Origin: Pelagovum pacificum
GTDB lineage: Bacteria; Pseudomonadota; Alphaproteobacteria; Rhodobacterales; Rhodobacteraceae
Length of the DNA stretch: 64,000 bases
Direction: 5' to 3'
Assembly: GCF_016134045.1 (NCBI RefSeq)
Contig: NZ_CP065915.1
Span: 2,604,001-2,668,000 of the forward strand
Shown here: positions 14,855 through 45,115 of the stretch, piece after piece
How positions within the stretch are numbered: the first letter of the stretch is position 1
Layout of the letters: each line of letters begins with the position of its first letter
Translations under genes and position numbers: made by a program
Notes under the pieces: generated by a model
Told to the model about the DNA's origin: nothing
Seen by the model: the letters and a program-made list of their open reading frames with translations, nothing else
Database searches by the model: none

Positions 14855-15898
14855 TCACCCCGGCGCGGCCCTCAGCAGCATTCCGAACAGGTCGCGCGGT
14901 TCGTCGGGGTCGGCGAGCAGGTCGAGCTGCTCGCAATAGGGATGGGACTTCAACGCGGCGTGGATGTAGCGCAGGGCGGAGAAATCCTCCGTCGCGAAGC
15001 CGACGCTGTCGAACACGGTGATCTGCCGCTCGTCGCGGCGGCCCGTGGCGGTGCCGGTGATCACCTGCCAAAGCTCGGTGACCGGGTGGTCATCGTCGAG
15101 TTGCTGGATCTCGCCCTCGATCCGGGTCTGCGGCGGGTATTCCACGAAGATGTCCGACCGCAGGAGGATGTCGCGGTGCAGCTCGGTCTTGCCCGGGCAG
15201 TCGCCACCGACGGCGTTCACGTGCAGCCCCGCGCCGACCATGTTGTCAGTGAGGATCGTCGCATATTGCTTGTCCGCCGTCGCGGTGGTGACGATGTCCG
15301 CGCCCTCAACCGCCTCTTCGGGCGCCGCGCAGCACGTGATGTCGAAGCCGAAGGCGGCAAGGTTGGCGGCGCAGCGCTCTGTCGCGGCGGAGTCGATGTC
15401 GAACAGGCGCAGCCGGTCCACGCCGAGCAGCGCCTTGAAGGCGAGCGCCTGGAACTCCGACTGGGCGCCGTTGCCGATGATCGCCATCGTCTTCGCCCCC
15501 GGCCGGGCGAGGTATCTGGCCGCGACGGCGGATGTCGCCGCGGTGCGCAGCGCGGTGAGGATCGTCATCTCGGTCAGCAGCAGGGGATAGCCCGTCTCGA
15601 CCTCGGCGAGCAGGCCGAAGGCAGTGACCGTCTGCCGGCCGCTCTTCGTGTTGCCGGGATGGCCGTTGACGTACTTGAACCCGTAGAGCGTGCCGTCGCT
15701 GGTCGGCATCAGCTCGATCACCCCGATCTTGCTGTGGGAGGCGACGCGGGGCGTCTTGTCGAAGCTCTCCCACCGGGTGAAGTCATGCTCCACGTGCTCG
15801 GCCAGTTCGCGCAGGAAACGCTCGATCCCGATCGCGTGGACGAGCTTCATCATGTTTTCGACGCTGACGAAGGGAACGAGGTTTAGGTCCTTGAGCAT
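14855..15898 (-). CDS. Ornithine cyclodeaminase / mu-crystallin family protein
   Basis: About 347 residues, close to the usual length of ornithine cyclodeaminases (around 350). The NAD-binding motif GNGAQSEFQALAF follows the conserved LTALRTAATSAVAARYLA segment, and substrate-binding residues lie in the N-terminal half (KYVNGHPGNT). The family converts L-ornithine to L-proline and ammonia. Related paralogues act on other amino acids or ketimines. I prefer the ATG at 15898 with GGCAGGG upstream; a GTG two codons earlier is possible. It lies after the arabinose operon but behind a strong palindrome, so it may be transcribed separately. Confidence 0.88.
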   Translation of the reverse strand: MLKDLNLVPFVSVENMMKLVHAIGIERFLRELAEHVEHDFTRWESFDKTPRVASHSKIGVIELMPTSDGTLYGFKYVNGHPGNTKSGRQTVTAFGLLAEVETGYPLLLTEMTILTALRTAATSAVAARYLARPGAKTMAIIGNGAQSEFQALAFKALLGVDRLRLFDIDSAATERCAANLAAFGFDITCCAAPEEAVEGADIVTTATADKQYATILTDNMVGAGLHVNAVGGDCPGKTELHRDILLRSDIFVEYPPQTRIEGEIQQLDDDHPVTELWQVITGTATGRRDERQITVFDSVGFATEDFSALRYIHAALKSHPYCEQLDLLADPDEPRDLFGMLLRAAPG

Positions 15899-20210: not shown

Positions 20211-21722
20211 TCAGCCAACCTTGAGTTTCACGACATGATACGACAGCGGCGCGAGGCTGCCCTTCAAGGAACCGTCATCGACACCGATGCCCTTGCCGTC
20301 GGTCGGCGCGATGGCGTCGGGCTTGTCGGGGCCGTTGGTCGCTTCGAGGTCGTGACCTTCCATGACTTTGTGCATGATGACCTCGGCGCTGTCGAAGCCG
20401 GTAAGCGACATCGAAAGCTCCGCCGTCTCGGTCAGGTGCCGGTTCAGCGCGAAGACCGTCACGGTGCCCGCGGCACGGTCCCAGGTCGCGGCGATATCCA
20501 TGTAGGGAACGTCGCTGGCGACCTCGCAATTGTAGGTCGGACCATCGACGGAGACGTTCAGCGCCTCGCCGCGGCCGTGCAACGACGCGAACTGGTAGGG
20601 CCAGTAGATCGTCTGGCGCCATGCCGGGCCGCCCTTCTCCGCCCGGATCGGGGCGATGACGTTCACGAGCTGCGCGATACAGGCGATGCGGACCCGGTCG
20701 GAGCGGCGGATGAACTCGTTCAGCAGGCCGCCGATGAACAGCGCGTCCTCGAAGTTGTAGTCCTCTTCCAGAAGCGCGGGGGCTTCCGGCCAGTCCCACG
20801 TGTGCCAGCGCTTATGGTCTTCCTCGCGGATGTGATACCAGACGTTCCACTCGTCGAAGCAGATGTAGACGTCGTTCTTGGCGCGCTTCTTGGCCTTGAT
20901 GAAGTCGATGACGCCGCCGATCGCCTGGATGTAGCGGCCCGTCTCCTCGATCTTGCCGAAGAAGTTCAGCGTGTCCTTCGAGGAGTTGCCGAAATACTTG
21001 TGCAGCGAGATGTAGTGGACGTTCTCGTAGCACTCGTCGAGCACCTGGCGCTCCCACTCGGGGTAGGTCGCCATGCCGTCGTTCGAGGAGCCGCAGACGA
21101 TGAACTCGGCACCCGGCGTGATCTGACGCAGGGCTTTCGCGGTCTCGTCGGCGATACGGCCGTATTCCTTGGCTTCCTTGTGGCCGATCTGCCAGGGACC
21201 GTCCATCTCGTTGCCGAGGCACCACATCTTGACGTCGTAGGGGTCCTCGACGCCGTGGCTCTTGCGGAGATCGGACCAGAAGGTGCCGCCCGGCATGTTC
21301 ACGTACTCGACGAAGTCGCGCGCATCCTGCAGGCCCTTGGAGCCGAGGTTGACGGCGAGCATCATCTCGATGTCCGTCTCCTTCGCCCAGTGGGCGAATT
21401 CATTGATGCCGACCTGGTTGCTTTCGCGCGAACGCCACGCGAGGTCCATCCGCATCGGGCGATCCTCTTTCGGACCGATGCCGTCTTTCCAGTCGTAGGC
21501 CGAGACGAAGTTGCCGCCGGGATAGCGGATGGCCGGGATGTTGAGGCCCTTGACCAGCTCCATCACGTCCTTGCGGAAGCCCATGTGGTCCGCTTCGGGG
21601 TGGCCCGGCTCGTAGATGCCGGAGTAGATCGCCCGGCCCATGTGCTCGATGAACGCCGCATAGAGGCGGTCGTCGATCGTGCCGATCCGGAAATCGCGGT
21701 GGAGCGCCGCATTCACTTTCAT
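20211..21722 (-). CDS. abfA: Alpha-L-arabinofuranosidase, GH51
   Basis: A 503-residue glycoside hydrolase family 51 enzyme, the size of characterised bacterial AbfA. The acid/base E172 lies in WCLGNEMDGPW and the nucleophile E291 in ICFDEWNVW, at the same spacing as in the Geobacillus enzyme (E175/E294). RYPGGNFVSAYDWKDG is also a family hallmark. It releases terminal alpha-L-arabinofuranose from arabinan, arabinoxylan or arabinogalactan oligosaccharides. No signal peptide, so it acts in the cytoplasm on imported oligosaccharides, in line with the ABC importer directly downstream. It follows the AraD1-like gene by 54 bases. Confidence 0.95.
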   Translation of the reverse strand: MKVNAALHRDFRIGTIDDRLYAAFIEHMGRAIYSGIYEPGHPEADHMGFRKDVMELVKGLNIPAIRYPGGNFVSAYDWKDGIGPKEDRPMRMDLAWRSRESNQVGINEFAHWAKETDIEMMLAVNLGSKGLQDARDFVEYVNMPGGTFWSDLRKSHGVEDPYDVKMWCLGNEMDGPWQIGHKEAKEYGRIADETAKALRQITPGAEFIVCGSSNDGMATYPEWERQVLDECYENVHYISLHKYFGNSSKDTLNFFGKIEETGRYIQAIGGVIDFIKAKKRAKNDVYICFDEWNVWYHIREEDHKRWHTWDWPEAPALLEEDYNFEDALFIGGLLNEFIRRSDRVRIACIAQLVNVIAPIRAEKGGPAWRQTIYWPYQFASLHGRGEALNVSVDGPTYNCEVASDVPYMDIAATWDRAAGTVTVFALNRHLTETAELSMSLTGFDSAEVIMHKVMEGHDLEATNGPDKPDAIAPTDGKGIGVDDGSLKGSLAPLSYHVVKLKVG

Positions 21723-28950: not shown

Positions 28951-30063
28951 CTACCGCATACGCTGGCCGTTCGCATCGAAGATGCGGACGGCATCCTCCA
29001 CCGGCGTGATCGTCACCGCCTGCCCCGGAGAGAAGTCCTCCTTCCCCCGGTACTCGGCAGAGACATCCGAACCGTCGGCGAGGGTGAGGTGCACGAACTG
29101 CGTGCCGCCGAGATATTCCGACAGCTCCACCGTTCCGGAGAGACCCGGCGCGCCCTCGCCCGACGGGCTGACGGACAGGTGTTCGGGACGCAGGCCGACG
29201 TCGATGGCGGCCCCGTCCGCCGGCGGCGCGGCGAGATTCACCGGGAAACCCTGCCCGCCGATCCACGCCTGCCCGTTCCGCCATTCGCCCCGCAGGAAGT
29301 TCATCCGGGGCGAGCCGATGAACCCGGCAACGAAGGAATTGTCCGGGTCCTCGTAGAGCTGCCGGGGCGTGCCGACCTGCTCGATCCGGCCACTCCTCAG
29401 CACCACGATCCGGTCGGCCAGCGTCATCGCCTCTGTCTGGTCGTGGGTGACGTAGATCACCGTGTTGCCGAGTTCGCGATGCAGGCGGGCGATCTCCACC
29501 CGCATGCCGACCCGCAGCTCCGCGTCGAGGTTGGAGAGCGGCTCGTCGAACAGGAAGGCGCGCGGCTTGCGCACGATGGCTCGGCCAATGGCGACCCTCT
29601 GCCGTTGCCCGCCCGAAAGCTGCGCCGGCCGCCTGTCTAGCAGCGGGCTGATATCGAGCACCTGCGCGGCAGCCTCCACCCGCTCGGCGATCTGAGCCTT
29701 CGGCAGACGCTCCAGCGACAGCCCGAAGCCCAAGTTCTCGCGCACCGTCATGTGCGGGTAGAGCGCGTAGGACTGGAAAACCATCGCGATGCCGCGCTTG
29801 GACGGGTCGTTGTCGGTGACGTCCTCTCCGCCGATCCAGACGTCGCCGGACGACACGTCCTCCAGTCCGGCGATCAGCCGCAGCAGCGTGGACTTGCCGC
29901 AGCCCGAAGGTCCGACGAAAACGCAGAACTCGCCGCTCTGGACGGAGAGGTCGACGCCGTGGATCACCTCGTGCCCGCCGAACTGCTTGCGCAGCCGGCG
30001 AAGCTCGATGGTGCCCGCGCCGGTGTCGGCGGTGAGCTCTTCGGTCAGTGTGTCCGCAGCCAT
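28951..30063 (-). CDS. Sugar ABC transporter ATP-binding protein (MalK/UgpC family)
   Basis: A 370-residue ATPase: Walker [10 protein letters not shown] (51-59), signature LSGGQRQR (149-156), Walker B AFLFDEP and a TOBE domain with GLRPEH. The ATG at 30063 follows GGGGGAG and overlaps the end of the GH127 gene by 19 bases. The frame stays open further upstream only as an antisense-like shadow inside GH127. It completes the importer at 32009-35175 and is the last gene of that operon. Confidence 0.94.
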
Positions 30064-31982
30064 ACCAGCATCTCCCCCGGTTCGCGGTTGTCCCACAGGT
30101 GATAGGGCACGAAGGTCCCCTGCCCTGCCGTGACGGTCGGCGCCGTCGTGCGGTAGAGCGCGCGGCCCCAGTCCTCGTGCGTCTCGACGGTGACCGGCAG
30201 GCGGAAGCCGACCGCGTCGCCGAGTGCCGGCAGCGGCACCGTCTCCGCCTTGTCGAGCCCGCCGTTCAGCAACACGGTGTCGAGTGTCACGTCGTTGTCC
30301 GCGCCTTCCATGCAATAGACCAGCGGCCCGCGCGTCAGCGCGGAGCGGCCCCGGTCGGCCCGGACGCGCGGGTCCGCCCGCAGCGCGGTGACCGCCATCG
30401 GCAGGTCGAGGGTGACGACATCGCCATCCGACCATTCCCGCTCGATCGTGACGTAGCCGGTGCCCTCCGTGCCCGAGAGATCGACCGCCTCGCCGCCGAG
30501 CGTGACGGACGGGTCCGCGCACCAGCCCGGCAGCCGCAGCGACAGGGCAAAGCGGGCCGGACCGTCGGTGCCGATCGTCAGCTTGATGCGCCCGTCCCAC
30601 GGATACTCGGTCTCCTGCTCGATGGTGACGGCGGACCCGCCGAGCGTGAAGCGCGCCTTGCTCGCCCCATAGAGATGCACGGCCAGCGCATCGTCCGCGA
30701 CCCCGTACATGTAGGTCCCGATCGAAGTCACGGCGCGGGCGATGTTGGGCGGGCAGCAGGGGCAGCGGTGCCAGTCCCAGCGATGGTGATGGCCGTGGCT
30801 TTCGAGCGGGTTCTCGTAGAAGAACTGCCCGCCGTCCATCGACAGCCCCGACAGCGCGCCGTTGTAGAACGCGGTCTCCATCACGTCCGCATATTCGCGG
30901 TCCGGGCCACGGCCCAGCATCCGGCTGGCCCACATCGCCAGCGCGATCGAGGCGCAGGTCTCGGCATAGGCGGTATCGTTCGGCAGGTGGTACGGATCGG
31001 AGAAGCCTTCGTTGTGCTCCTCGGGCCCGATGCCGCCGGTGATATACATCTGGCGCTGCGTGACATCGGCCCAGAGCGTCTCCAGCGGCGCGGTCAGGCT
31101 GTTGTCGTTGAACTCCGTCGCGACGTCGGCCATGCCGCTGTAGAGATACATCGCCCGCACCGCGTGGCCGACGACGCGGTCCTGCTCGCGGACCGGCTTG
31201 TGGCTCTGACTGTATTCATGGGTGCCGTGCACGAAGCCGTCGGGCGATGCGCCGCGCCGCTTCGCCTCCTCGTCGAAATAGTGGGGCTGCTGGCCCCGGA
31301 CATCGACGAAGAACTTCGCGAGCTCGAGGTAGCGCGGCTCATTCACCTCGCGGCCGAGCTTGATGAGCGCGAGTTCGATCTCCTCGTGGCCGCAATAGCC
31401 CTGCATCTGGTCCTCGCCCCAGCCGAACTTGCGGTCGATCAGGTCGGCGTAGCGGCACATCACGTCGAGCAGCACGCGCTTGCCCGTGGCCTGGTGATAG
31501 GCGACGGCGGCCTCCATCAGGTGCCCGGCACAGTAGAGTTCGTGGCAGTCGCGCAGGTTCGTCCATTCCTTGCCCGGCTGCATCCGCAGGTACCACGAGT
31601 TGCAGTAGCCGTCCTCGCGCTGGAGCGCGGCGAACATCGCGATGATCTCGTCCACCCGCGCCTCGAGCGCCGGGTCGCGGCGGCGATGGACGGCATAGGC
31701 CGCGGCCTCGAGCGCCTTGGCGACGTCGCTGTCCCAGAACATCTGGGTGGTCACGGTCGACTCCTTGCCCTCGCGGCGGTGAAACTTCAGCCGCTGCTCG
31801 GGCACCGGGCGGGAGGGGTCGATCTGGTCGAACATCCCCGCCTCGGCACAACGGTCGAGCAGGATATGCACGGTCTTCGCCGACACCGCGTCGGCACGCT
31901 CGCCCCAGAAGCCGCGAAGCTCGACATCGGGGATCGCTGGCGGGCGGTACTGGCGGGTCGCCTTGTCTGTCACGGCATCCAT
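30045..31982 (-). CDS. Beta-L-arabinofuranosidase, GH127 (DUF1680)
   Basis: A 645-residue GH127 enzyme, close to Bifidobacterium HypBA1 (658 residues). By motif and spacing the acid/base is E325 (HNEGFSD). The zinc ligands are E341 and C343 (ETCAS) with C409 and C410 (CPCCPPN), where C409 is the expected nucleophile. The family removes terminal beta-L-arabinofuranose, as found on plant hydroxyproline-rich glycoproteins; some relatives act on other beta-arabinosides. There is no signal peptide, so it acts on imported substrate. ATG at 31982 with AAAGGA upstream. It lies between the permeases and the ATPase of a LacI-controlled importer. Confidence 0.93.
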
Positions 31983-35205: not shown

Positions 35206-36240
35206 TCAGCCGGCCGGGCCGATGGTCGACGCCCTCGGCACCAGCGTGCAGGGCAATCGGGTCGTTCCTGTTGCCGGGCTCTCCCCCGCGATCATACGCG
35301 TCAGGGTGCGCCCGACTTCCCTGCCGAGCTCCGGCAGGTTCATGTCGATCGAGCTCAGCGGCGGGCGGGCCTGCGCGGCCAGCACCTGCCAGTTGTCGAA
35401 GCCGATCACCGCGATCTGGCCGGGCACGTCGATGCCGCGCTCCCGGAACGCGTCGATCATGCCGAGGCCGATCTGGTCGCTGCCGCAGAACACCGCGTCG
35501 GGCCAGTCGGAGGCCGGGCGCCCGTCGATCAGGTGCGCCGCCGCCGTGTGACCCCAACCTTGCGACCAGTCTCCGTGAAGCGCCTCGCCCTCCTTCCAGA
35601 GACCCTCTGCCGCGAGCGTGTCGCGCCAGCTTTCGGCGCGCTCCATCGCGACGCGGAACCGGCGCGGGCCGGTGACGTGGGCGATCCTGCGGCGCCCGAT
35701 CTCGATCAGGTGCGAGACGGCGAGCGCCGCACCGTGGCGTTCGTCCGGGGCCAGCGTCACGCCGTCCGCCGGGCCGTGGCTCAGCGCGTAGACGGTCGGC
35801 ACCGTCACCCCGGTCAGGTCGATGTCGGGCAGCCGGTCGACCCGGCGGCCGGATATGATGAGCCCGTCGACGCGCTTCTGCAGCAGCGCGTCGAGATGCG
35901 TCGCGCCGAGCTCTTTCGGGCCGTCGATCACACAGAGGAACACCGACATGCCCTGCGCGATCAGCCCCTCGGTCAGCCCCGCCATCAGCGGAAGGCTGAA
36001 GCGGCCGTAGGTATCGTCCGTCAACAGCCCGACCGAGGAGCTACGGTTCGACTGCAGCGCCCGCGCCATCGCGTTAGGGCGGAAGTCGAGCTCCCGCGCG
36101 GCCTCGAGAACCGCCTTGCGAGTCTCGGCAGACACTCTGCCCGTCGCGTTCATCACCTTGGAAACGGTCGCGGTGGACACGCCTACCGCGTTGGCGACAT
36201 CACGAATCGTGGCGCGCCCGCTCCCCCCTTGGTCCTGCAT
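35206..36240 (-). CDS. LacI family regulator of the GH127 operon
   Basis: A 344-residue LacI-type repressor: helix-turn-helix at 10-34 (TIRDVANAVGVSTATVSKVM), hinge helix with NAMARALQS, and a periplasmic-binding-like effector domain. ATG at 36240 with GGGAGAGAG upstream. It is the first gene of the minus-strand operon, 30 bases before the binding protein, so it is autoregulated. Two TAAACGxTTA operators flank its promoter. The effector is presumably L-arabinose or an arabinoside. Confidence 0.93.
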   Translation of the reverse strand: MQDQGGSGRATIRDVANAVGVSTATVSKVMNATGRVSAETRKAVLEAARELDFRPNAMARALQSNRSSSVGLLTDDTYGRFSLPLMAGLTEGLIAQGMSVFLCVIDGPKELGATHLDALLQKRVDGLIISGRRVDRLPDIDLTGVTVPTVYALSHGPADGVTLAPDERHGAALAVSHLIEIGRRRIAHVTGPRRFRVAMERAESWRDTLAAEGLWKEGEALHGDWSQGWGHTAAAHLIDGRPASDWPDAVFCGSDQIGLGMIDAFRERGIDVPGQIAVIGFDNWQVLAAQARPPLSSIDMNLPELGREVGRTLTRMIAGESPATGTTRLPCTLVPRASTIGPAG

Positions 36241-36251
36241 ACTCTCTCCCT

Positions 36252-36267
36252 GAGTAATCGTTTAACC
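36252..36267. promoter_or_regulatory. LacI-type operator O1
   Basis: GAGTAATCGTTTAACC contains TAATCGTTTA, which matches the inverse complement of TAAACGGTTA at nine of ten positions with the central CG typical of LacI-family sites. It overlaps the -10 box and start region of the LacI promoter. Confidence 0.65.
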
Positions 36268-36293
36268 AATACGAAAAGGTGCGCGATTCGCAA
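36266..36293 (-). promoter_or_regulatory. Predicted promoter of the LacI-GH127 operon
   Basis: On the minus strand TTGCGA (36293-36288), 16-base spacer, TATTGG (36271-36266). It is sandwiched between the two LacI-type operators, the expected arrangement for repression. Confidence 0.5.
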
Positions 36294-36294
36294 A

Positions 36295-36310
36295 GGGTAA
36301 ACGGTTACCC
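36295..36310. promoter_or_regulatory. LacI-type operator O2
   Basis: GGGTAAACGGTTACCC, a 16-base palindrome with one mismatched pair and a central CG. Its centre is 43 bases from O1, about four helical turns, so one repressor tetramer or two dimers could bind the same face. It abuts the -35 box. Confidence 0.7.
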
Positions 36311-36474
36311 ATGCAATTTTCTGATGTCTGGCAAATCAGCACGGCGAAGTCGTTCAGCGATTCCAGACACCTGGCGACCGGGCCACACAGACAGCGGCGA
36401 CCACCGCCGGGATTGTCGCGAAACCGACATGAAGCCTTTGTCCGGCTGTCACCGAATCCACCGATGGTCCGGCC

Positions 36475-36490
36475 TTGCACACGAGTGCAA
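36475..36490 (+). promoter_or_regulatory. Second, different LacI-type palindrome
   Basis: TTGCACACGAGTGCAA, symmetrical except for one central pair and with a central CG. It lies 32 bases before the binding-protein start at 36522. Its half-site (TTGCAC) differs from the TAAACG half-sites, so it probably binds the second LacI protein, encoded at 42586 inside this same operon. Confidence 0.55.
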
Positions 36491-36521
36491 CGGACATGAA
36501 ACCGAACATCTGGGAATTGCC

Positions 36522-37877
36522 ATGACCATTCTCGACAAGCCCGTCCGCCTCGGGCTCGGCGCTGCGCTGCTCTCCTGCTGCGCCGTCTCCGCCCTCGCGC
36601 AGGACTACACCATCACCGTCTGGTCCGGAGGGACCGGCGACGATTCCAACTACCGCTACGACGCCATCGGCATGGCCGCCGAGATCCTCGAGCGCGAAGC
36701 CGAGATTCGCGGCGAAGAGCTCAACATCACCGTCGAAAGCCAGGCCTGGTCCGGCTGGGACGATTTCAAGCAGGCCTTCACCCTGGCCGCCGAAGCGGGC
36801 AACGCGCCCGACATCCTCGTCTCCGGACACGAAGACATAGGCCCCTGGTCCGAAGCCGGCCTGATCGTGCCGATCGAGGATTACACCTTCTTCGACGTCT
36901 GGCCGCTGAGCTCGATCTACCCGAACCTGATCGACGTCGCGAGCTACAACGGTCAGATCTGGGGCGTGCCGCAGGACGCCGAAGCGCGCGTCATGTACTG
37001 GTCGATCCCCGCGCTGGAGGCGATCGGCTGGTCCGCCGAAGAGATCGAAAGCCTGCCCGCCCGCGTCGAATCCGGTGAGTTCACGCTCTACGACATGCTC
37101 GACGCCGTGAAGCAGATGCAGGACGAGGGCGTCATCGAGGCCGGCATGGGCTTCGGCCCGCGCGTGTCGAACGGTCCGGACTACTGGCAGTTCTACCAGT
37201 CCTTCGGCGGCGAGATGGCCGACCCGGAGACCGGCAAGCTCGTGGTCGACACCGAGGCGCTGACCGGCATGTACCAGTTCTTCACCGACGCCGCCGAGAT
37301 GGGCGTCGTGTCGGACACCCACCTCGGCACCGAGTGGGACAGCTGGCACCAGAACGCGGCGTCCGGCAATTACGGCGTCTGGCACGGCGGCACCTGGCAC
37401 TATGCCCAGTGGACGAACCAGTTCGGGCTCGAGGATTTCTTCGGCACGGTGCAGTACACGCTGATCCCCGCCGGGGACGAGAACGGCCGCGCCAACTCGA
37501 TCACCCACCCGCTCGTCTACCTGCTGACGTCCGCCGCGTCCGAGGACGAGGCGATGATCGCGGCCGAGCTGATCGCCATCGCCTCCGAACCGCGCATCAA
37601 CGCGCTGCACGCGGTGAAGTCCGCCCACCTCGGCATCTCCGAGGCAGAGACGCTTGTGCCGATCTACGCCGACGACCGCTGGCTCTCCGCCGCGTCCGAG
37701 CGGCTGGCGCCCCACACCAATGCGATCCCGAACAACTCCGACTTCGGGACCTATTGGACGGCGATGTTCGACGGGCTCGAAGCCTCGTGGACCGGCGTGA
37801 CCTCGGTCGAGGACGCTGTCTCGGAAGTCGAAGCCAACGTGACTCAGGCGCTCGGCGATGATGTCATCGTTCGCTAA
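36522..37877 (+). CDS. CUT1 ABC transporter binding protein of the phosphodiester operon
   Basis: A 451-residue family-1 solute-binding protein with a signal peptide ending at ALA-Q (about 27). The mature start DYTITVWSGGTGDDSNYRYD and an aromatic-rich centre (WQFYQSFGG, WHGGTWHYAQW) fit a sugar ligand. ATG at 36522 with GGGAA upstream. It overlaps a tiny ten-codon frame by ATGA and the next permease by 20 bases, so unlike the other importers there is no stem-loop after it. The ligand may be a sugar or glycerol phosphodiester, judged by downstream enzymes. Confidence 0.9.
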   Translation: MTILDKPVRLGLGAALLSCCAVSALAQDYTITVWSGGTGDDSNYRYDAIGMAAEILEREAEIRGEELNITVESQAWSGWDDFKQAFTLAAEAGNAPDILVSGHEDIGPWSEAGLIVPIEDYTFFDVWPLSSIYPNLIDVASYNGQIWGVPQDAEARVMYWSIPALEAIGWSAEEIESLPARVESGEFTLYDMLDAVKQMQDEGVIEAGMGFGPRVSNGPDYWQFYQSFGGEMADPETGKLVVDTEALTGMYQFFTDAAEMGVVSDTHLGTEWDSWHQNAASGNYGVWHGGTWHYAQWTNQFGLEDFFGTVQYTLIPAGDENGRANSITHPLVYLLTSAASEDEAMIAAELIAIASEPRINALHAVKSAHLGISEAETLVPIYADDRWLSAASERLAPHTNAIPNNSDFGTYWTAMFDGLEASWTGVTSVEDAVSEVEANVTQALGDDVIVR

Positions 37878-39243
37878 GCCGATGACGGACGGGACGGCGC
37901 GCGCGACGCGCCGTCCCACTCGCCGAAAGGCCCGGGGGCATGTCTCCGGGCTCGGCCTGCTGATGATGGCGCCCGCGCTGATCATGCTGCTGGCCTTCTT
38001 CTTCACGCCGGTCGCGCTGACCGGGGTCTTCGCCTTCACCGACCTCTCGACCTCGACCGGGATCGGGCGGGGCACTTTCGTCATCACGCCGACCGACCTG
38101 CGCCAGCTACGCGACCGGGGCCTGACCGAGGACGAGGCGCTCGCCATTTCCGCCGCGACCTACTCCGTCGATGACGCGGGGCTCGCGGCCGCGCGCGCTG
38201 CCGGCGCCGACGCCGCCTTCGTCGACCAGATCGCAGAGCGCCTGACGGGCGAAAGCTACGAAGACCAGCGCGATTTCGAGCGCGTCCTGCGCGACCTCCC
38301 CGCCGCGCCCCGCAGCCCGCGCGCGATCAAGTCCGCCGCCGAAGCCTTCGGCCAGTCCGTCCTGAACCGCCGGCACGAGACGCGCGACGCGCTTGCCGCG
38401 CAGCTCGACGCGACCGCGCCGGACCTGTCGGACGCCGTGCGCGACATGGTGCTCGACGCCTCCTACACCGGCGCCGTCTTCACGACTGAGAACTTCACCC
38501 GCCTCGCCACGCAGCCCGAAACCGGACGGCTGATCGCCAACACCGCGCTCTACGTCGGCGCGACCCTGTCGGTCTTCAACGTCGGGCTCGGTCTCTTCCT
38601 CGCCATCGTGCTGTTCTACATGCCGAAGCCCGTGACAGGCTTCTTCAGCACCGTCTGGCTGTTGCCCCGGATCACGCCGGTCGTGCTCTACACGATCATG
38701 TGGAAGTGGTTCACTTGGGAGGACGGCTTCCTGCCGATCCTGGCCGAGCAGGTCGGCCTGCCCTCGTTCAACTACATGAAGGGCTCGGTCGTCACCGCGT
38801 GGATGACGATGATCTCCGTCAACGGCTTCATCGGCGCCTCGTTCGGACTGATCCTGTTCTCGGGCGCGCTGCGGGCGATCCCGGTGCAGCAGCTCTGGGC
38901 CTCAGAGGTCGACGGCGCGACGCGGCTCCAGCAGGTGCGTCGGATCATCCTGCCGCAGATGCGCTGGCCGATCCTGTTCGTGACCGCCTACCAGACGCTT
39001 TCGCTGCTCTCGTCCTACGAGCAGATCTGGCTCACCACCAACGGCGGCCCCGGCAAGACGACGACGGTCTGGGCGCTCGAAGCGTTCAAGACCGCGCTGT
39101 CCAACTACTCGGGCAACCTCGAATACGGAATGGGGGCAGCGATGGCGCTGATCCTCGTCGTGGTCGGGCTGGCGCTCTCCATCATCTACCTCATGATCTT
39201 CAAGTTCGGCGAGCTCGTCTCGCGTCCGAAGATCGAATTCTGA
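37858..39243 (+). CDS. CUT1 ABC permease (MalF-like) with large insertion after helix 1
   Basis: A 461-residue permease, about 150 longer than its counterparts here. Helix 1 spans about 31-58. Residues 65-205 or so form an alanine-, arginine- and glutamate-rich, apparently helical insertion (LRQLRDRGLTEDEALAISAA). The normal permease sequence then resumes (ENFTRLATQPETGRLIANTAL), with helix 2 near 226. By topology the insertion is periplasmic. E. coli MalF also has a periplasmic insertion (P2), but between helices 3 and 4. The coupling loop is atypical (ASEVDGATRLQQ). The start may instead be ATG 37882, just after the binding-protein stop. Confidence 0.9.
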   Translation: MMSSFAKPMTDGTARATRRPTRRKARGHVSGLGLLMMAPALIMLLAFFFTPVALTGVFAFTDLSTSTGIGRGTFVITPTDLRQLRDRGLTEDEALAISAATYSVDDAGLAAARAAGADAAFVDQIAERLTGESYEDQRDFERVLRDLPAAPRSPRAIKSAAEAFGQSVLNRRHETRDALAAQLDATAPDLSDAVRDMVLDASYTGAVFTTENFTRLATQPETGRLIANTALYVGATLSVFNVGLGLFLAIVLFYMPKPVTGFFSTVWLLPRITPVVLYTIMWKWFTWEDGFLPILAEQVGLPSFNYMKGSVVTAWMTMISVNGFIGASFGLILFSGALRAIPVQQLWASEVDGATRLQQVRRIILPQMRWPILFVTAYQTLSLLSSYEQIWLTTNGGPGKTTTVWALEAFKTALSNYSGNLEYGMGAAMALILVVVGLALSIIYLMIFKFGELVSRPKIEF

Positions 39244-39252
39244 GGCACCGCC

Positions 39253-40077
39253 ATGACGCGCAACTTCTCCACCATCCCGCTGATCCTCGCCATCACGCTC
39301 GTCAGCCTGCCGCTGATGGTGATGTATGGCTTCCTGATCCTCGACACCTTCACCGACGCCCCGCCGGGAGAGCTGTGGCCCGACCGGTTCACGCTCGAGC
39401 ACTGGCGGTTCCTGTTCGATACGTCGGTGGTCGGCAACGTCTGGGCGGCGACGGGCAACAGCCTCATCCTCGCCCTGTCGATGATGGTGATTGTGCTGTC
39501 GCTGTCGACCACGGCGGCCTACGCGATCTCCCGGCTGCACCTCCCCTACCGGCGGTTCTTCCTCGCCGGAATCATGGTGATGCACGCCTTTCCCGCCGTG
39601 ACCCTGCTGATCGGAGTGTTCTTCGTTCTGAACTTCACCGGGCTCTACAATTCGATGATCGGGGTGATCCTCGTGAAGGGCGCACTGATGCTGCCCTTCG
39701 GCATCTGGATCATGAAAGGCTTCTACGACGCCGTCCCGTGGGAGATCGAGATGGCGGGCGTGCAGGACGGGGCGAGCCGCTTCACCGTCTGGCGCCGCCT
39801 GATCCTGCCGCAGGTCAAACCCGGCCTCGTCGCGCTCGGCGTGTTCTCCTTCCTCGATGGCTGGGGCGAGTACCTGCTGCCGCGCATCCTCGCGCCCGGC
39901 TCGGAGATGACCGTGCTGTCGGTCTTCCTCAATGAACTCATCGCTGCCGACCAGCTCGGCTACGACTTCAACCTCTTCAAGTCGGTTGGCGTCTTCTACA
40001 CCCTGCCGGTGATCCTGCTCTTCGTGATCTTCCAGAACCGGCTCATGAACATCTTCGGCGGAGGCACCAAGGGCTGA
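39253..40077 (+). CDS. CUT1 ABC transporter permease (MalG-like)
   Basis: A 274-residue inner-membrane permease with six helices. The coupling loop reads EMAGVQDGASRFTVW, which departs from the usual EAAxxDG. It starts ten bases after the larger permease and overlaps the ATPase start by one base. It forms the channel with the insertion-bearing permease at 37858. Confidence 0.91.
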   Translation: MTRNFSTIPLILAITLVSLPLMVMYGFLILDTFTDAPPGELWPDRFTLEHWRFLFDTSVVGNVWAATGNSLILALSMMVIVLSLSTTAAYAISRLHLPYRRFFLAGIMVMHAFPAVTLLIGVFFVLNFTGLYNSMIGVILVKGALMLPFGIWIMKGFYDAVPWEIEMAGVQDGASRFTVWRRLILPQVKPGLVALGVFSFLDGWGEYLLPRILAPGSEMTVLSVFLNELIAADQLGYDFNLFKSVGVFYTLPVILLFVIFQNRLMNIFGGGTKG

Positions 40078-41138
40078 TGCGACTGCACCTCGACAATTTC
40101 ACCAAGCGGTTCGACGGGACCGCTGTCATCGAAGACCTCGACCTCGTGGTCGAGGACGGAGAGATGATGGCCCTGCTCGGTCCCTCCGGCTGCGGCAAGT
40201 CCACGACGCTCCTGTCCATCGCCGGTATCTACCGCGCCGACGGCGGGCGCATCCTGTTCGGCGAGCGCGACGTCTCCAACCTGCCGAGCCAGCGGCGCAA
40301 CGTCGGCGTCGTGTTCCAGAACTACGCGCTCTACCCGCACATGAGCGTTGAGGAGAACATCGCCTTCCCGCTCACCGTCGGCGCCAACCGCGCCGACGCG
40401 GCCGAGGTCACGCGCCGGGTGCGCGAGACGGCGGAACTGGTCCACATCGAAGAGCTGCTGGCCCGCAAACCCGCGCAGCTGTCCGGCGGCCAGCAACAGC
40501 GCGTCGCCCTCGCCCGCGCCATCGTGCGCCGGCCGGACGTGCTACTGCTGGACGAGCCGCTCGCCAACCTCGACGCCAAGCTGCGGCTCGAGATGCGCTC
40601 CGAGATCCGGCGCATCCAGCTCGAGACCGGGATCACCGCGATCCTCGTCACCCACGACCAAGTGGAAGCGATGTCCATGTGCGACCGCGTCGCGATCATG
40701 AACAAGGGCGAGATCATCCAGCTCGACCGGCCGACCGAGATGTATCGCTCGCCCGTGAACCGCTTCGTCGCCGGCTTCCTCGGCAACCCGCCGATCGTGT
40801 TCCTCGACGGGCGGACCGCCGAGGGCGGACGGTTCGAGATGGATGGCCTGTCCCTGCCCCTGCCCTCGCACCTCGGCGCGATGCCGGGCGGACGTCCGAT
40901 CAGCCTCGGCCTAAGGCCCGAACATTTCGGCGCCGGCGGAAGCGCAAGCGCGACGGGCCGCGTGACCTTCGTGGAGCCGCAGGGCCGCGAGACGCTGTTC
41001 GACGTGGAGGCTGCGCCGGGCATCGTGCTGCGGTCGGTCCAGCCGGTGCGCGAGGATGTCTCGGTCGGCGACACGGTGACCTGGCCCGTCGACACCGAGA
41101 AGATGCTTGCCTTCGATGCGAACGGAGCACGACTGTGA
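40077..41138 (+). CDS. Sugar ABC transporter ATP-binding protein (MalK/UgpC family)
   Basis: A 353-residue ATPase: Walker [10 protein letters not shown] (35-43), signature LSGGQQQR (135-142), Walker B VLLLDEP and a TOBE domain with [14 protein letters not shown] is shared with UgpC/MalK-type proteins. The start overlaps the permease stop. The GDPD gene starts with a GTG overlapping its stop by four bases. Confidence 0.94.
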   Translation: MRLHLDNFTKRFDGTAVIEDLDLVVEDGEMMALLGPSGCGKSTTLLSIAGIYRADGGRILFGERDVSNLPSQRRNVGVVFQNYALYPHMSVEENIAFPLTVGANRADAAEVTRRVRETAELVHIEELLARKPAQLSGGQQQRVALARAIVRRPDVLLLDEPLANLDAKLRLEMRSEIRRIQLETGITAILVTHDQVEAMSMCDRVAIMNKGEIIQLDRPTEMYRSPVNRFVAGFLGNPPIVFLDGRTAEGGRFEMDGLSLPLPSHLGAMPGGRPISLGLRPEHFGAGGSASATGRVTFVEPQGRETLFDVEAAPGIVLRSVQPVREDVSVGDTVTWPVDTEKMLAFDANGARL

Positions 41139-42589
41139 GACCCTCTCTCACCCATCCCTGGCCCACCCGCGCCGATGGAAGACCGTTCTGCATCGCGCAT
41201 CGCGGAGCCTCCGCCCACGCGCGCGAAGGCACGCCGCAGGCGTTCGACTTCGCCGCCGACCTCGGCAGCGACATGTGGGAAGCCGACATCTGGCTGACAT
41301 CGGACAAGTGTCCGATGGTGAGCCACGACCCCAGCTTCACCGCCACCGATGGCAGCATGGTGGAGATCGCCGCGCTGACCGCCTGCGAGATGGCCGAACG
41401 TCACCCCGAGGTGCCGACGCTCGCGGCGACCATCGCGCAGGCGCGGCAACGCGGACAGGCGCTCTACCTCGACCTGAAGGCGCCCGGTGCGGGGCCGCTC
41501 GCGGTCGTGGAGCTCGAGAAAGCCGGCTTTGCGCCCGCCGCGCTCGGCGCATTCGACGACGCAGAGGCCCGCGCCCTGATCGAGGCGGATTGCCCCTGGC
41601 CCGTCACCGTGCTCGTCCGGCTCGGCGAGGATCCCTTCGCTCGTGCCGACGCGACCGGTGCGGACATCATCCACCTCTGCTGGGAACATGCCGGCGACCG
41701 GCCGCAGGACCTCGTCACGCCCGACCTGCTGGCCGAAGCCGACCGGCGGGGCCTCGGCGTCGCGATCTGGCACGAGGAACGGCCCGAGGTTCTGGCCGAT
41801 CTCGTCGCGCTGCCGGTCCTCGGCATCTGTACCGACAATCCCGAACGGCTCGGCGGTTTCCACGCCCTGCCCCCGACGGGCATCGAGGTGGTCTGCCATC
41901 GCGGCATCAATCATATCGCGCCGGAGAACACGATGGAGTCCGCCGCGCTGACCTACGACATGGGGTGCGACTGGCTGGAGCTCGACGTGCGGCAGGCGAA
42001 GGACGGCACGATCGTCGTGATGCATGATCCCACCGTCGACCGGACGACGGACGGCACCGGACGTGTGTCCGAGATGACGGCGGAGCAGCTCGTCAGGCTC
42101 GACGCCGGTTACTGGAAAGACCCGCACTGGCGCGGCGCGACGGTGCCGACGCTCGACGCCGCGATCGACCTCTGCCGCGCGCGCGGGCGGCGCATGTATA
42201 TCGAGGACAAGGATGTCCCCGCGCAGGCGCTTGTCGATTTCGTCCGCTCAAAAGGCTTCATGGCCGACTGCTTTTTCTGGTCGCCCCACTCCGAGCTCTT
42301 GCAAGAGATCCGACGGCTTGCGCCGGAGGCGAACATCAAGGCCAACATCTTCCACTTCGACGGTTTCGACGCGATGGTCGCCACGCTGGACCCGCAGATC
42401 TGCGAGATCCAGGTCAGGGACTGGGAGGTCGAGGCGCCGCTCTGCCGGGCGCACGGCATCCGTCCGATGCTCCAGTATTTCGGCTCGGAGCCGGAGGTCT
42501 TCGACCGGATCGCGGCGTGGCGGCCCGAGATGATCAACCTCGACCGGGCGGACCTGCTGCTCGCGGCGCTGCGCAAGACGATCCGATGA
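41135..42589 (+). CDS. Tandem-domain glycerophosphodiester phosphodiesterase
   Basis: A 484-residue protein made of two GDPD domains. Domain 1 (about 15-240) has H22-R23, E49/D51 and H64; domain 2 (about 248-484) has H255-R256, E282/D284 and H297 (MHDPTVDRTTDG). Both therefore keep the HR-ExD-H metal and catalytic set, but only domain 2 has the usual APENT segment after HRG. GDPD enzymes cleave glycerophosphodiesters to an alcohol and glycerol-3-phosphate, and Agrobacterium AccF cleaves agrocinopines. GTG start at 41135 overlapping the ATPase stop. No signal peptide, so it acts on imported substrate. Confidence 0.9.
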   Translation: MRPSLTHPWPTRADGRPFCIAHRGASAHAREGTPQAFDFAADLGSDMWEADIWLTSDKCPMVSHDPSFTATDGSMVEIAALTACEMAERHPEVPTLAATIAQARQRGQALYLDLKAPGAGPLAVVELEKAGFAPAALGAFDDAEARALIEADCPWPVTVLVRLGEDPFARADATGADIIHLCWEHAGDRPQDLVTPDLLAEADRRGLGVAIWHEERPEVLADLVALPVLGICTDNPERLGGFHALPPTGIEVVCHRGINHIAPENTMESAALTYDMGCDWLELDVRQAKDGTIVVMHDPTVDRTTDGTGRVSEMTAEQLVRLDAGYWKDPHWRGATVPTLDAAIDLCRARGRRMYIEDKDVPAQALVDFVRSKGFMADCFFWSPHSELLQEIRRLAPEANIKANIFHFDGFDAMVATLDPQICEIQVRDWEVEAPLCRAHGIRPMLQYFGSEPEVFDRIAAWRPEMINLDRADLLLAALRKTIR

Positions 42590-43593
42590 AGGACAGGAAC
42601 GTGACTGCGCTCGACGTGGCGCGCCATGCCGGGGTGTCCCGCTCCGCCGTCAGCCGCACCTTCACCGACGGGGCGAGCGTCTCGGAAGAGACCCGCGCCA
42701 AGGTCATGTCCGCGGCAGAAGAGCTCGGCTACCGGGTGAACTTCCTCGCCCGCAGCCTGATCCGGCAGCGTTCGGAACTCGTCGCGCTCGTCGTCTCCGA
42801 CATGGACCACTCGTTCCGCGCGATCCTCGTCGACCAACTGTCGCGCGGACTGGTGGCGCGCGGCTATCGCCCGGTCCTCCTGCCGTGGACCGACGGGGAC
42901 GAGCCGCGACGTCTGATCGACATGATGCTGCACTACAACGTCGCCGGCGCCATCGTCACGTCGGACACACCGCCGGTGGAGATCGCCGACGAATCCGCCC
43001 GCTGGGGCGTGCCGCTGGTGCTGGTGAACAAAGCACCGGTGCACGAACGGGCCGCGCGGGTGATGCAGGATACCGACGCGGCCGGCCTGCTCGCCGCCGA
43101 AGCGCTCTACGAGGCGGGGTGCCGCCGGGTGGCTTATGCCGGACAGCGGCGGCGATCCTTCACCATCGACGCGCGGCGTTTGGCATTCGAGCGGCGGCTG
43201 GCCGAGCTCGGCATGTCGCTTGCCGGATCGGTCGCCGGAGCGGCGCAGAACCACGCCGGCGGGATGGAGGCCGGAGAGGCGTTCCTCGCCTCGGGCCTGT
43301 CCGTCGACGGCGTGCATTGCGCGAACGACTTCATCGCGCTCGGCTTCATCGACCGCTTGCGGCAGGCCGGCATCACCGCGCCGGAGGATGTGAAGCTGGT
43401 CGGTTGCGACGACATCGCGGAGGCGGCGTGGCCCGCCTACGACCTCACCACGATCCGTCAGGATGTAGACGCGCTCGCGCAGGCCGCGCTCAAGGCGCTG
43501 GCGGGGCGTATCGAAGCGCCGCAGACGCCGGCGGACCTCTCGCTGCTCGGCGTCGGCCTCGTGCGGCGCGGCTCGACGGGGGTGCCGTCATGA
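42586..43593 (+). CDS. LacI family regulator of the phosphodiester operon
   Basis: A 335-residue LacI-type regulator: helix-turn-helix at about 6-30 (TALDVARHAGVSRSAVSRTF), hinge segment FLARSLIRQRS and an effector domain ending with CDDIAEAAWPAYDLTTIRQD. ATG overlaps the GDPD stop (ATGA). Being inside the operon it is likely autoregulated, perhaps through the palindrome at 36475-36490. The effector is unknown. Confidence 0.92.
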   Translation: MKDRNVTALDVARHAGVSRSAVSRTFTDGASVSEETRAKVMSAAEELGYRVNFLARSLIRQRSELVALVVSDMDHSFRAILVDQLSRGLVARGYRPVLLPWTDGDEPRRLIDMMLHYNVAGAIVTSDTPPVEIADESARWGVPLVLVNKAPVHERAARVMQDTDAAGLLAAEALYEAGCRRVAYAGQRRRSFTIDARRLAFERRLAELGMSLAGSVAGAAQNHAGGMEAGEAFLASGLSVDGVHCANDFIALGFIDRLRQAGITAPEDVKLVGCDDIAEAAWPAYDLTTIRQDVDALAQAALKALAGRIEAPQTPADLSLLGVGLVRRGSTGVPS

Positions 43594-44375
43594 CTGGCCT
43601 CGAAGACCGTTGCGACGCGGGGGCGCGGATCGTCGGTCATGCCGGGGACCTCGCGCTCGACTATTTCGCGCGGCGGGCGGAGCTCGACGTGTCGGCCAAG
43701 GCAAACCCACAGGACCTCGTCAGCGAGGCGGACCGCGCCGTCGAACTGCTGATCCGCGACGCGATCCACGACGCTGTCCCCTGTGACGGGATCATCGGCG
43801 AGGAACACGGATGCGCGGCCGGTGACAGCGACTGGAACTGGATCGTCGATCCGATCGACGGCACCTCCTCGTTCCTGCACGGCTTGCGCGGATGGTCCGT
43901 GTCGGTCGCGCTCCGCCACGGTACGCGGACGGTCGCGGGCTGGGTCGCGGACCCGAGCGGCGGGCGGCTCTACCGCGCGGTCGCCGGACAAGGCGCTTGG
44001 CTTGGCGACAGCCGGTTGCGCGTGTCAGAGGCGCGCCTGCTCGAAGACGGGCTGACGGCGGTCGGCTCCGGCCATCCCGACCGGATGGGGGCACTTATCG
44101 CCGCGCTCCTGTCGCGAGGCGGCGCGTTTCAGCGGAACGGATCGGCCGCGCTCAGCCTCGCGCATGTCGCCGCTGGTCACTACCTCGGCTTCTACGAACC
44201 CAGGCTGTCCCCGTGGGACTGCGCCGCCGGGCTGCTGCTGATCGAGGAAGCCGGCGGCGTCAGCGACCCCCACCCGCTCGACCGGCCTGCGCCGGTCCTT
44301 GCCGGGGCGCCGGGCGTGATCGCGGAACTGCGCAACCTCGTGGCGACGACCGAACTCGCGGAGCCGGTGGACTAG
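43590..44375 (+). CDS. Inositol monophosphatase family phosphatase
   Basis: A 261-residue Mg-dependent phosphatase of the IMPase/FIG superfamily. Metal and catalytic residues are visible: GEEHG (E71-E72), DPIDGTSSF (D87, D90) and PWDCAAG near residue 213. Relatives hydrolyse inositol-, histidinol- or sugar-phosphates; Agrobacterium AccG, which follows the GDPD AccF, is of similar type. It would remove phosphate from the product of the GDPD enzyme. It overlaps the LacI gene by four bases and is the last gene of the operon, converging with TauE by a four-base overlap. Confidence 0.9.
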   Translation: MTGLEDRCDAGARIVGHAGDLALDYFARRAELDVSAKANPQDLVSEADRAVELLIRDAIHDAVPCDGIIGEEHGCAAGDSDWNWIVDPIDGTSSFLHGLRGWSVSVALRHGTRTVAGWVADPSGGRLYRAVAGQGAWLGDSRLRVSEARLLEDGLTAVGSGHPDRMGALIAALLSRGGAFQRNGSAALSLAHVAAGHYLGFYEPRLSPWDCAAGLLLIEEAGGVSDPHPLDRPAPVLAGAPGVIAELRNLVATTELAEPVD

Positions 44376-45115
44376 GCGCCCAACAGCTCCGCCCCGCCGC
44401 GGAACAGCAGCGCGACGGACAGGATGAACAGCATCGCCTGGATCACCTTGAGATAGCCGTCCTCCGACAGCCACGCGGTCACGGCCTTGCCGATCACCGT
44501 GCCCACGATCCCGGTCACGGCGAGCCCGGCGATCAGCGGCCAGTCCAGCCCATCGAGCTGGCCGATCGCCCAGTAGGCCGGCAGCTTCACGAGGTTGCCG
44601 ATCGCGAAGGCGATGGCAACTGTGCCCGCGAACTCCAGCTTCGGCAGCTTCTGCGGCAGCAGGTAGGCCTGGCTCGGCGGCGCGCCGGAATGGGTGATGA
44701 AGCTCGCGATGCCGGTGAGCGTGCCCCAGAAGATGCCGGGCAGCACCTTGGCCTCGGTCCTTTCCACCGTGCCGCGTTTCAGCCAGCTGCGCAGGCAGTA
44801 CCAGAGGCCGATGAGACCGGTGAAGATCAGCAGCAGCGACTCCGGCGTGTAGGGCGTGATGATCGTCGCGACGCCGACGCCGAACAGCAGGGAGGGCGTG
44901 AGGATCCAGAGGTTCCGGCGCGAGTAGCTCCTGCGGTAGAGCCAGACGCCGACCCAGTCGGTCACGATGTAGACCGGCAGCAACATCGCCGCCGCCGTGA
45001 CCGGGTTCATGAAAAGCGCCAGCAGCGGCACGGCGATGGCGGCCGCCGAGGCGAGGCCACCCTTCGACATGCCGACGATCAGGGCGGCGGCGATCAGCAG
45101 TACGGTTTCGGTCAT
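44372..45115 (-). CDS. TauE/SafE family permease (sulfite exporter-like)
   Basis: A 247-residue membrane protein with about eight helices in two repeats, matching the TSUP/TauE-SafE family that moves sulfite, sulfoacetate or other organosulfur or small anions. No sulfur gene is near. The motif GTLTGIASFITHSGAPP is typical. Its end overlaps the phosphatase end by four bases (convergent). The substrate is unknown. Confidence 0.88.
   Translation of the reverse strand: MTETVLLIAAALIVGMSKGGLASAAAIAVPLLALFMNPVTAAAMLLPVYIVTDWVGVWLYRRSYSRRNLWILTPSLLFGVGVATIITPYTPESLLLIFTGLIGLWYCLRSWLKRGTVERTEAKVLPGIFWGTLTGIASFITHSGAPPSQAYLLPQKLPKLEFAGTVAIAFAIGNLVKLPAYWAIGQLDGLDWPLIAGLAVTGIVGTVIGKAVTAWLSEDGYLKVIQAMLFILSVALLFRGGAELLGA

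Follow-up and report, generated by a model that had tools for sequence, protein, structure and literature searches.

The seven-gene operon at positions 36522-44375 of a 64,000-nucleotide stretch of Pelagovum pacificum DNA (hereafter the window; contig NZ_CP065915.1, 2,604,001 to 2,668,000, forward strand) probably constitutes a locally repressed catabolic or scavenging system for a small soluble phosphodiester carrying a sugar or a polyol. The operon comprises (i) an importer of the CUT1 family with its substrate-binding protein (SBP), (ii) a tandem glycerophosphodiester phosphodiesterase (GDPD), (iii) a LacI-family regulator, and (iv) a phosphatase of the inositol monophosphatase (IMPase) family. 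This reading is built on sequence, namely the gene set and order, the protein families, the catalytic positions in both GDPD barrels, their conservation and a LacI-linked palindrome; import of the diester intact and the order of the reactions are what we infer. The mechanism of import, cleavage and dephosphorylation is supported, with inositol and agrocinopine as candidate substrates only. The operon appears to be an Ugp/Acc-like variant not described in the literature searched: a full-text search, mostly without subscription papers, found no description of it by title or abstract. The genes and domains are as follows.

36522-37877, plus strand: SBP of the CUT1/MalE type, 451 aa (Pfam SBP_bac_1; export signal by eye)
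37858-39243, plus strand: permease 1, 461 aa as called (BPD_transp_1; a long segment precedes the permease core at 242-447)
39253-40077, plus strand: permease 2, MalG-like, 274 aa (BPD_transp_1)
40077-41138, plus strand: ABC ATPase, UgpC/MalK-like, 353 aa (ABC_tran with TOBE_2/OB_MalK)
41135-42589, plus strand: tandem GDPD, 484 aa, GTG start (Pfam GDPD in two stretches)
41135-41872, plus strand: N-terminal GDPD barrel, residues 1-246, marked by a conserved signature of its own (C182-W-E and W212-H-E-E)
41873-42589, plus strand: C-terminal GDPD barrel, residues 247-484
42586-43593, plus strand: LacI-family regulator, 335 aa (Pfam LacI plus Peripla_BP_3)
43590-44375, plus strand: IMPase-family phosphatase, 261 aa (Pfam Inositol_P; GEE and DPIDGT motifs)

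The inspection of open reading frames (ORFs) places seven tightly packed ORFs on the plus strand, in agreement with the first-pass annotation, a model's reading of the bare sequence. That annotation described the seven genes as overlapping, which holds for the four junctions from permease 2 onward (1 or 4 bp), but permease 1 and permease 2 are separated by a gap of 9 bp, and the overlap of the SBP and permease 1 genes depends on the start codon picked, later ATGs lying at 37882 and 37963. The families were assigned with Pfam and NCBIfam profiles, and Pfam bears out all the identities first proposed. The transporter displays the composition of a CUT1 importer, with an SBP_bac_1 binding protein, two BPD_transp_1 permeases and an ATPase carrying the MalK-type OB/TOBE domain; the MalG and MalF models of NCBIfam match below their cut-offs. 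The SBP carries a typical export signal and, as also proposed, the enzymes have no signal peptide, both judged by eye. Scanning 36200-44600 disclosed no promoter-like site on the plus strand; terminator-like sites numbered three, with 2.6 expected. Neither the Rfam nor the tRNA scan of the window gave a match.

GDPD enzymes share a fold, paired histidines, acidic metal ligands and a lysine, and all of these are found in both barrels of the tandem protein, each a complete fold in the structure analysis. Across 46 tandem proteins the catalytic positions of the N-terminal barrel are E49, H64 and K115 (kept in 46 each), D51 (45, one gap) and H22 (43, three gaps), and those of the C-terminal barrel, H255, E282, D284, H297, E357 and K359, are kept in 46/46. 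The top-ranked solved structures for both barrels are glycerophosphodiesterases. The phosphatase matches the Inositol_P domain with 167 bits, and the GEE and DPIDGT-type motifs of the IMPase superfamily are both present in 37/37 sequences (the window plus 36 loci); the inositol-1-monophosphatase model of NCBIfam reaches 136.6 bits, under its cut-off of 332. The predicted structure of the SBP (pLDDT 90.1) matches the folds of MalE3, GacH, SmoF, UgpB and others, a set that is not diagnostic.

The comparison of genomes confirms, at the level of sequence, that the operon is real rather than a chance arrangement, its gene order being kept across several alphaproteobacterial families. Searching species genomes with the GDPD as query yielded 46 loci, and the search for all seven genes that the first-pass annotation suggested finds the full order in 26 of them, or 27 if the 31%-identical IMPase of locus L019 is counted. 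The core from SBP to GDPD is present in 40/46; among the other six, a contig end cuts L017, L045 and L046 (in L045 all five genes are visible and the GDPD is cut), in L022 the SBP gene is represented by its last part alone, in L039 the GDPD gene is partial and no transporter stands beside it, and in L036 the GDPD adjoins another transporter. Since these loci were picked by the GDPD, a second search was run with the SBP as query, at 1e-70, with hits in 14/394 family genomes and 2/385 class genomes, the own genome being in both sets (15 distinct genomes). The GDPD adjoins the ATPase in 14 of the 15, own genome included, and a contig end cuts the remaining one (G674). Of the 14 assessable genomes, 11 have an IMPase gene within the operon or next to it, counting L070, where it lies on the opposite strand, L068, where it is a gene away, and L019, where it is divergent. 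Homologous operons devoid of GDPD and phosphatase, named beforehand as the case that would tell against the import, cleavage and dephosphorylation logic, were thus sought with the SBP query: none of the 14 lacks the GDPD, and three have no phosphatase nearby. That logic is supported, GDPD and IMPase accompanying the CUT1 transporter across many genera.

At 1e-100 the SBP is matched in 131 plasmid records, 121 of them from Rhizobium, and the carriers include pRL9 of R. johnstonii 3841 and p42b of R. etli CFN42. In the SBP tree, bacterial families are intermingled, and identical SBPs occur in two species of Devosia, which makes horizontal transfer likely. In a Roseicyclus metagenome-assembled genome a transposase-like ORF, by eye probably an insertion, separates the GDPD and LacI genes (L020:11028-11693).

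Three sites upstream of the operon enter the discussion of its regulation.

36475-36490, no strand: 16-bp palindrome TTGCACACGAGTGCAA, lying 47 bp ahead of the SBP start and proposed as operator for the LacI encoded in the operon
36295-36310, no strand: second palindrome GGGTAAACGGTTACCC, 55 bp ahead of the start of the divergent LacI gene and, from its position only, proposed as operator for the divergent arabinoside operon
36435-36452, plus strand: degenerate PHO-box-like site, 9/14 positions, with a good second half-site CTGTCAC only, 40 bp upstream of the proposed operator

The palindrome of the operon family comprises 16 bp with a central CG, TTGCACACGTGTGCAA or TTGCACGCGCGTGCAA. In most loci it lies 35-106 bp ahead of the SBP start, in a few at a distance of 129-223 bp. 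Of the 52 upstream regions compared, 44 come from loci with a LacI gene; it is found with at most two mismatches in 36 and with at most four in 43 of these 44. In the six loci without LacI (L029, L033, L034, L035, L040 and L044) it occurs in none, the best match having 6-8 mismatches, and in L045 and L069, both cut before LacI, it appears with one and two mismatches, respectively. The in-operon LacI would be expected to bind 36475-36490, its ligand presumably being a pathway intermediate; GGGTAAACGGTTACCC would serve the divergent arabinoside operon and not the seven-gene operon. At one mismatch or fewer, a genome-wide search of 37 operon genomes gave a match in 30, the window palindrome being the only such site of its own genome.

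Nine genomes also carry matches away from the operon, and all nine were inspected: four are associated with an IMPase gene or with operons that carry one, three with inositol-catabolism (iol) operons, and two lie at unexplained places. In G686 (L070) the IMPase gene is flipped and a palindrome copy of its own stands 72 bp ahead of the start, linking the phosphatase to the same regulon. In G040 (L113) and G793 (L115) the palindrome separates a LacI gene, whose product has the recognition helix RSAVSR, from an operon encoding an SBP, a permease, an ATPase and an IMPase; in G777 (L109) it is flanked by a LacI gene on one side and, on the other, by an importer operon that includes an IMPase and a GDPD of another type. 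It likewise separates a LacI gene from an inositol-catabolism operon in G639 (L105), G746 (L104) and G795 (L106), precedes another ABC operon in G784 (L108) and lies inside a gene in G786 (L114). Between the LacI gene and the inositol-catabolism operon, two or three tandem copies of a palindrome nearly identical to that of the operon family are found (L104:14204-14265, L105:3874-3912, L106:9603-9641).

These sister operons extend the comparison to other importers. The SBP of L115 is closest to 4r72-4r75 (3.6e-92), which we take to be AfuA, a hexose-phosphate binder. L113:2358-8816 and L115:3377-9812 pair an AfuABC-type importer with an IMPase gene, a LacI of the same helix and a palindrome of the same type; they differ from the window operon in SBP and permease family and in having no GDPD, and their substrate would be a monophosphate. 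The two operons suggest that the pair of LacI and IMPase handles sugar phosphates, whether imported as such or freed by a GDPD. Devosia riboflavina carries a second analogous operon (L109:3050-10319) comprising LacI, a third ABC importer type, a GDPD of a different type and an IMPase with 41% identity to that of the window.

A second layer of control may exist in part of the family. The PHO-box consensus, as given in PMC3131613, reads CTGTCAT-N4-CTGTCAT. Direct repeats of this kind matching at least 10/14 positions occur at -180 to -40 in 16/46 regions; control spacings give 2, 2, 2 and 6, the reverse strand gives 3, and none of 199 permuted units reaches 16. The same loci show such sites in 10/125 control promoters (Fisher p 5e-5, a value that ignores kinship). 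Stronger boxes are found in L010 (13/14) and in L007 and L043 (12/14 each), and in L007 the spacing between box and operator is 39 bp, about the same as the 40 bp of the window. At a threshold of 11/14, however, the count falls to 6, which 1/199 permuted units reaches, and the window itself has a half-box. As the window attains no more than 9/14, PhoB control is proposed for part of the operon family only and would be doubtful for the window operon.

Taken together, a candidate substrate such as a glycerophospho-polyol, a glycosyl-phosphoglycerol or a similar compound would be taken in intact by the SBP and the CUT1 transporter and cleaved in the cytosol by one or both GDPD barrels, giving a sugar- or polyol-phosphate together with an alcohol, for instance glycerol. 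The phosphatase would then strip the phosphate, rendering both carbon and phosphate usable, while LacI, seated on the 36475-36490 palindrome, would be released by an intermediate; PhoB would add activation at phosphate limitation in several relatives and only doubtfully in the window operon. A gene for a sodium/phosphate (Na/Pi) transporter follows the IMPase gene in L041, L042 and L072 and lies near it in L071, as it does close to acc, an arrangement that would fit a pathway releasing phosphate inside the cell. A sugar diester is favored by the CUT1 transporter, by the AfuA-like sister operons and by neighboring DUF5054 genes, GH38-like by eye, found near the operon in 7/56 loci from three lineages.

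Several observations weigh against this proposal. The genomes compared are related, so the counts are not independent; the fold of the SBP singles out no ligand; the palindromes away from the operon also mark iol operons and two unexplained places; and the PHO-box signal weakens at the stricter threshold. No phosphatase is found near the operon in three of the 14 assessable genomes selected by the SBP, G583 (L032), G592 (L006) and G040 (L067), and in L032 a phosphonate-associated iron alcohol dehydrogenase, PsrA, occupies the IMPase position (L032:11409-12530; 436.8 bits, cut-off 423.7). Moreover, four near-identical marine genomes of one clade (L033, L034, L035 and L040) have neither LacI nor IMPase and carry the SBP-to-GDPD core of the operon amid phosphonate genes. 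The flanks of L033, from this pelagic group, comprise PhnW, a PsrA relative (367.1 bits) and a relative of the phosphonate HD oxygenase (201.2 bits, cut-off 214.6); by BLAST the other three loci have the same flanking genes. These neighbors speak for uptake of phosphonate esters, as does the rarity of PsrA in the family, where it is over its cut-off in 4/198 genomes, two of which (G471 and G547) carry the operon, elsewhere in the genome. Such uptake is nonetheless very improbable: the association is confined to two lineages, and the window and most relatives have an IMPase, an enzyme that cannot break C-P bonds. For the window the phosphonate reading was rejected, its own genome having no PsrA at 1e-90 and the IMPase being present.

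The remaining alternatives concern the substrate and can be measured against known systems. The ugpBAECQ genes encode uptake of sn-glycerol-3-phosphate and glycerophosphodiesters together with the cytosolic GDPD UgpQ, and offer a nearer architecture than acc: CUT1 SBP, two permeases, ATPase and GDPD stand in the same order, and control by phosphate starvation is plausible in relatives of the window operon. A general scavenger of the Ugp kind, whose GDPD yields sn-glycerol-3-phosphate and an alcohol with the phosphatase as an accessory, is a possibility worth keeping, though a doubtful one. It would account for this shared order, for the ATPase, whose best match is the UgpC model (349 bits), for the glycerophosphodiesterase structures that head the rankings of both barrels and for the PHO-box-like sites of relatives. 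However, the UgpC match stays under its cut-off of 432, the UgpB-type models give no match to the window SBP at 1e-3, and the dedicated LacI and the conserved, co-regulated phosphatase are unneeded for glycerol-3-phosphate; the tandem GDPD, the own LacI with its palindrome and the IMPase-family phosphatase are what the window operon adds to ugpBAECQ. Glycerophosphoinositol, one of the substrates first put forward, would be split into inositol phosphate and glycerol, the phosphatase freeing myo-inositol for the iol pathway. The family of the phosphatase, an iolB over cut-off with iol-like genes beside it in the own genome, and the LacI genes that adjoin iol operons next to nearly the same palindrome in L104, L105 and L106 speak for this substrate, which is still unlikely. 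The two closest relatives, L001 (G402) and L014 (G691), keep the operon with IMPase while iolB is absent or represented by a 27-bit match; iolB is over cut-off in 9/14 family operon genomes versus 167/388 family genomes, which is no clear enrichment (Fisher p 0.17 for 9/14 versus 158/374, approximate, at least G691 being outside the 388); no palindrome of this type is found at the iol region of the own genome (L107); and the iol LacI shows another recognition helix, RWTVNR versus RSAVSR. The candidate is thereby weakened.

The first-pass annotation had also matched the operon to acc of Agrobacterium, which is right in kind, since GDPD- and IMPase-family genes are adjacent in pTiC58; a close tie, however, is unsupported. 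The acc region (L073) shares an importer, the GDPD-family AccF, the IMPase-family AccG and a nearby Na/Pi transporter with the window operon, and differs in its Opp-type AccABCDE transporter, DeoR/GlpR-type AccR and single GDPD, as against CUT1, LacI and a tandem GDPD. The window operon thus has the GDPD and IMPase pair and departs from acc in two of its defining features, transporter type and regulator type. An agrocinopine-like sugar phosphodiester, which the GDPD would convert into a sugar-2-phosphate from which the IMPase frees the sugar, is quite improbable, despite the adjacent AccF and AccG, the Na/Pi transporters and the arabinoside genes nearby. Identity is low (the GDPDs are 39% identical over 117 aa and the phosphatases 32% over 226 aa), the window SBP has no significant match to the acc binding protein, and in the tree AccF sits on a long branch, apart from the clades of both barrels. 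The argument from arabinose neighbors holds insofar as L-arabinoside enzymes are indeed encoded in the window, where the divergent operon upstream on the other strand carries its own LacI and a GH127 arabinofuranosidase gene; it is weak, GH127 being near the operon in just one of 56 homologous loci (L013), with a resemblance confined to the transporter in L009. The two enzymes are as follows.

30045-31982, minus strand: GH127 beta-L-arabinofuranosidase
20211-21722, minus strand: protein with an alpha-L-arabinofuranosidase C-terminal domain

Two further systems stand close to the sugar or polyol phosphodiester importer proposed here. The seven-gene operons of Rhizobium pRL9 and p42b, for which the literature searched gave no description, display the same order and an SBP 57-58% identical to that of the window, but have only the N-type GDPD barrel and a second, convergent GDPD. 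SmoF, the sulfoquinovosyl glycerol binding protein of Agrobacterium, is about 15% identical to the window SBP; to our knowledge, its pathway includes neither a GDPD nor a phosphatase.

If the proposed function holds, use of organic phosphorus would be the role given to an operon that is patchily distributed among roseobacters and rhizobia and often lies on plasmids in the latter. Its substrate would then point to a phosphodiester nutrient that passes between bacteria and plants or algae. The GDPD and IMPase pair recurs with three types of transporter, which suggests that two steps of this kind are a general way to use sugar phosphodiesters; agrocinopine use may be a specialized instance. A bolder construction, to which we give little credence, is that the tandem GDPD is a two-step enzyme with barrels of different specificity (the N-terminal one marked by CWE/WHEE) that opens unusual diesters handled by no known importer; that one LacI subfamily governs a series of phosphate-ester importers, each with an IMPase as the last enzyme, with CUT1 and GDPD for diesters and AfuA-type transporters for monophosphates; and that a pelagic radiation swapped the last enzyme for phosphonate enzymes, the set there including ABC importers of intact marine phosphonate esters.

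Other genes recur around the operon. In rhizobial and related loci the IMPase gene faces a convergently oriented gene for a second GDPD, of another type (L043:11535-12410, L044:10586-11560, L049:11547-12401 and L050:11556-12413). A small nucleotidyltransferase is encoded just upstream of the SBP gene in one SBP subclade (L023, L027, L029, L032 and L072; assigned by PF10706 in two scanned loci and by BLAST in the others), and a CehA/McbA-family metallohydrolase adjoins or lies near the operon at L001:12475-13890, L023:14232-15653 and L072:2362-3765 (NCBIfam for L001 and L072, BLAST for L023). Finally, the window encodes an ornithine cyclodeaminase-family protein at 14855-15898 (Pfam), and a similar-looking gene follows the IMPase gene in Martelella lutilitoris (L028:12630-13679).

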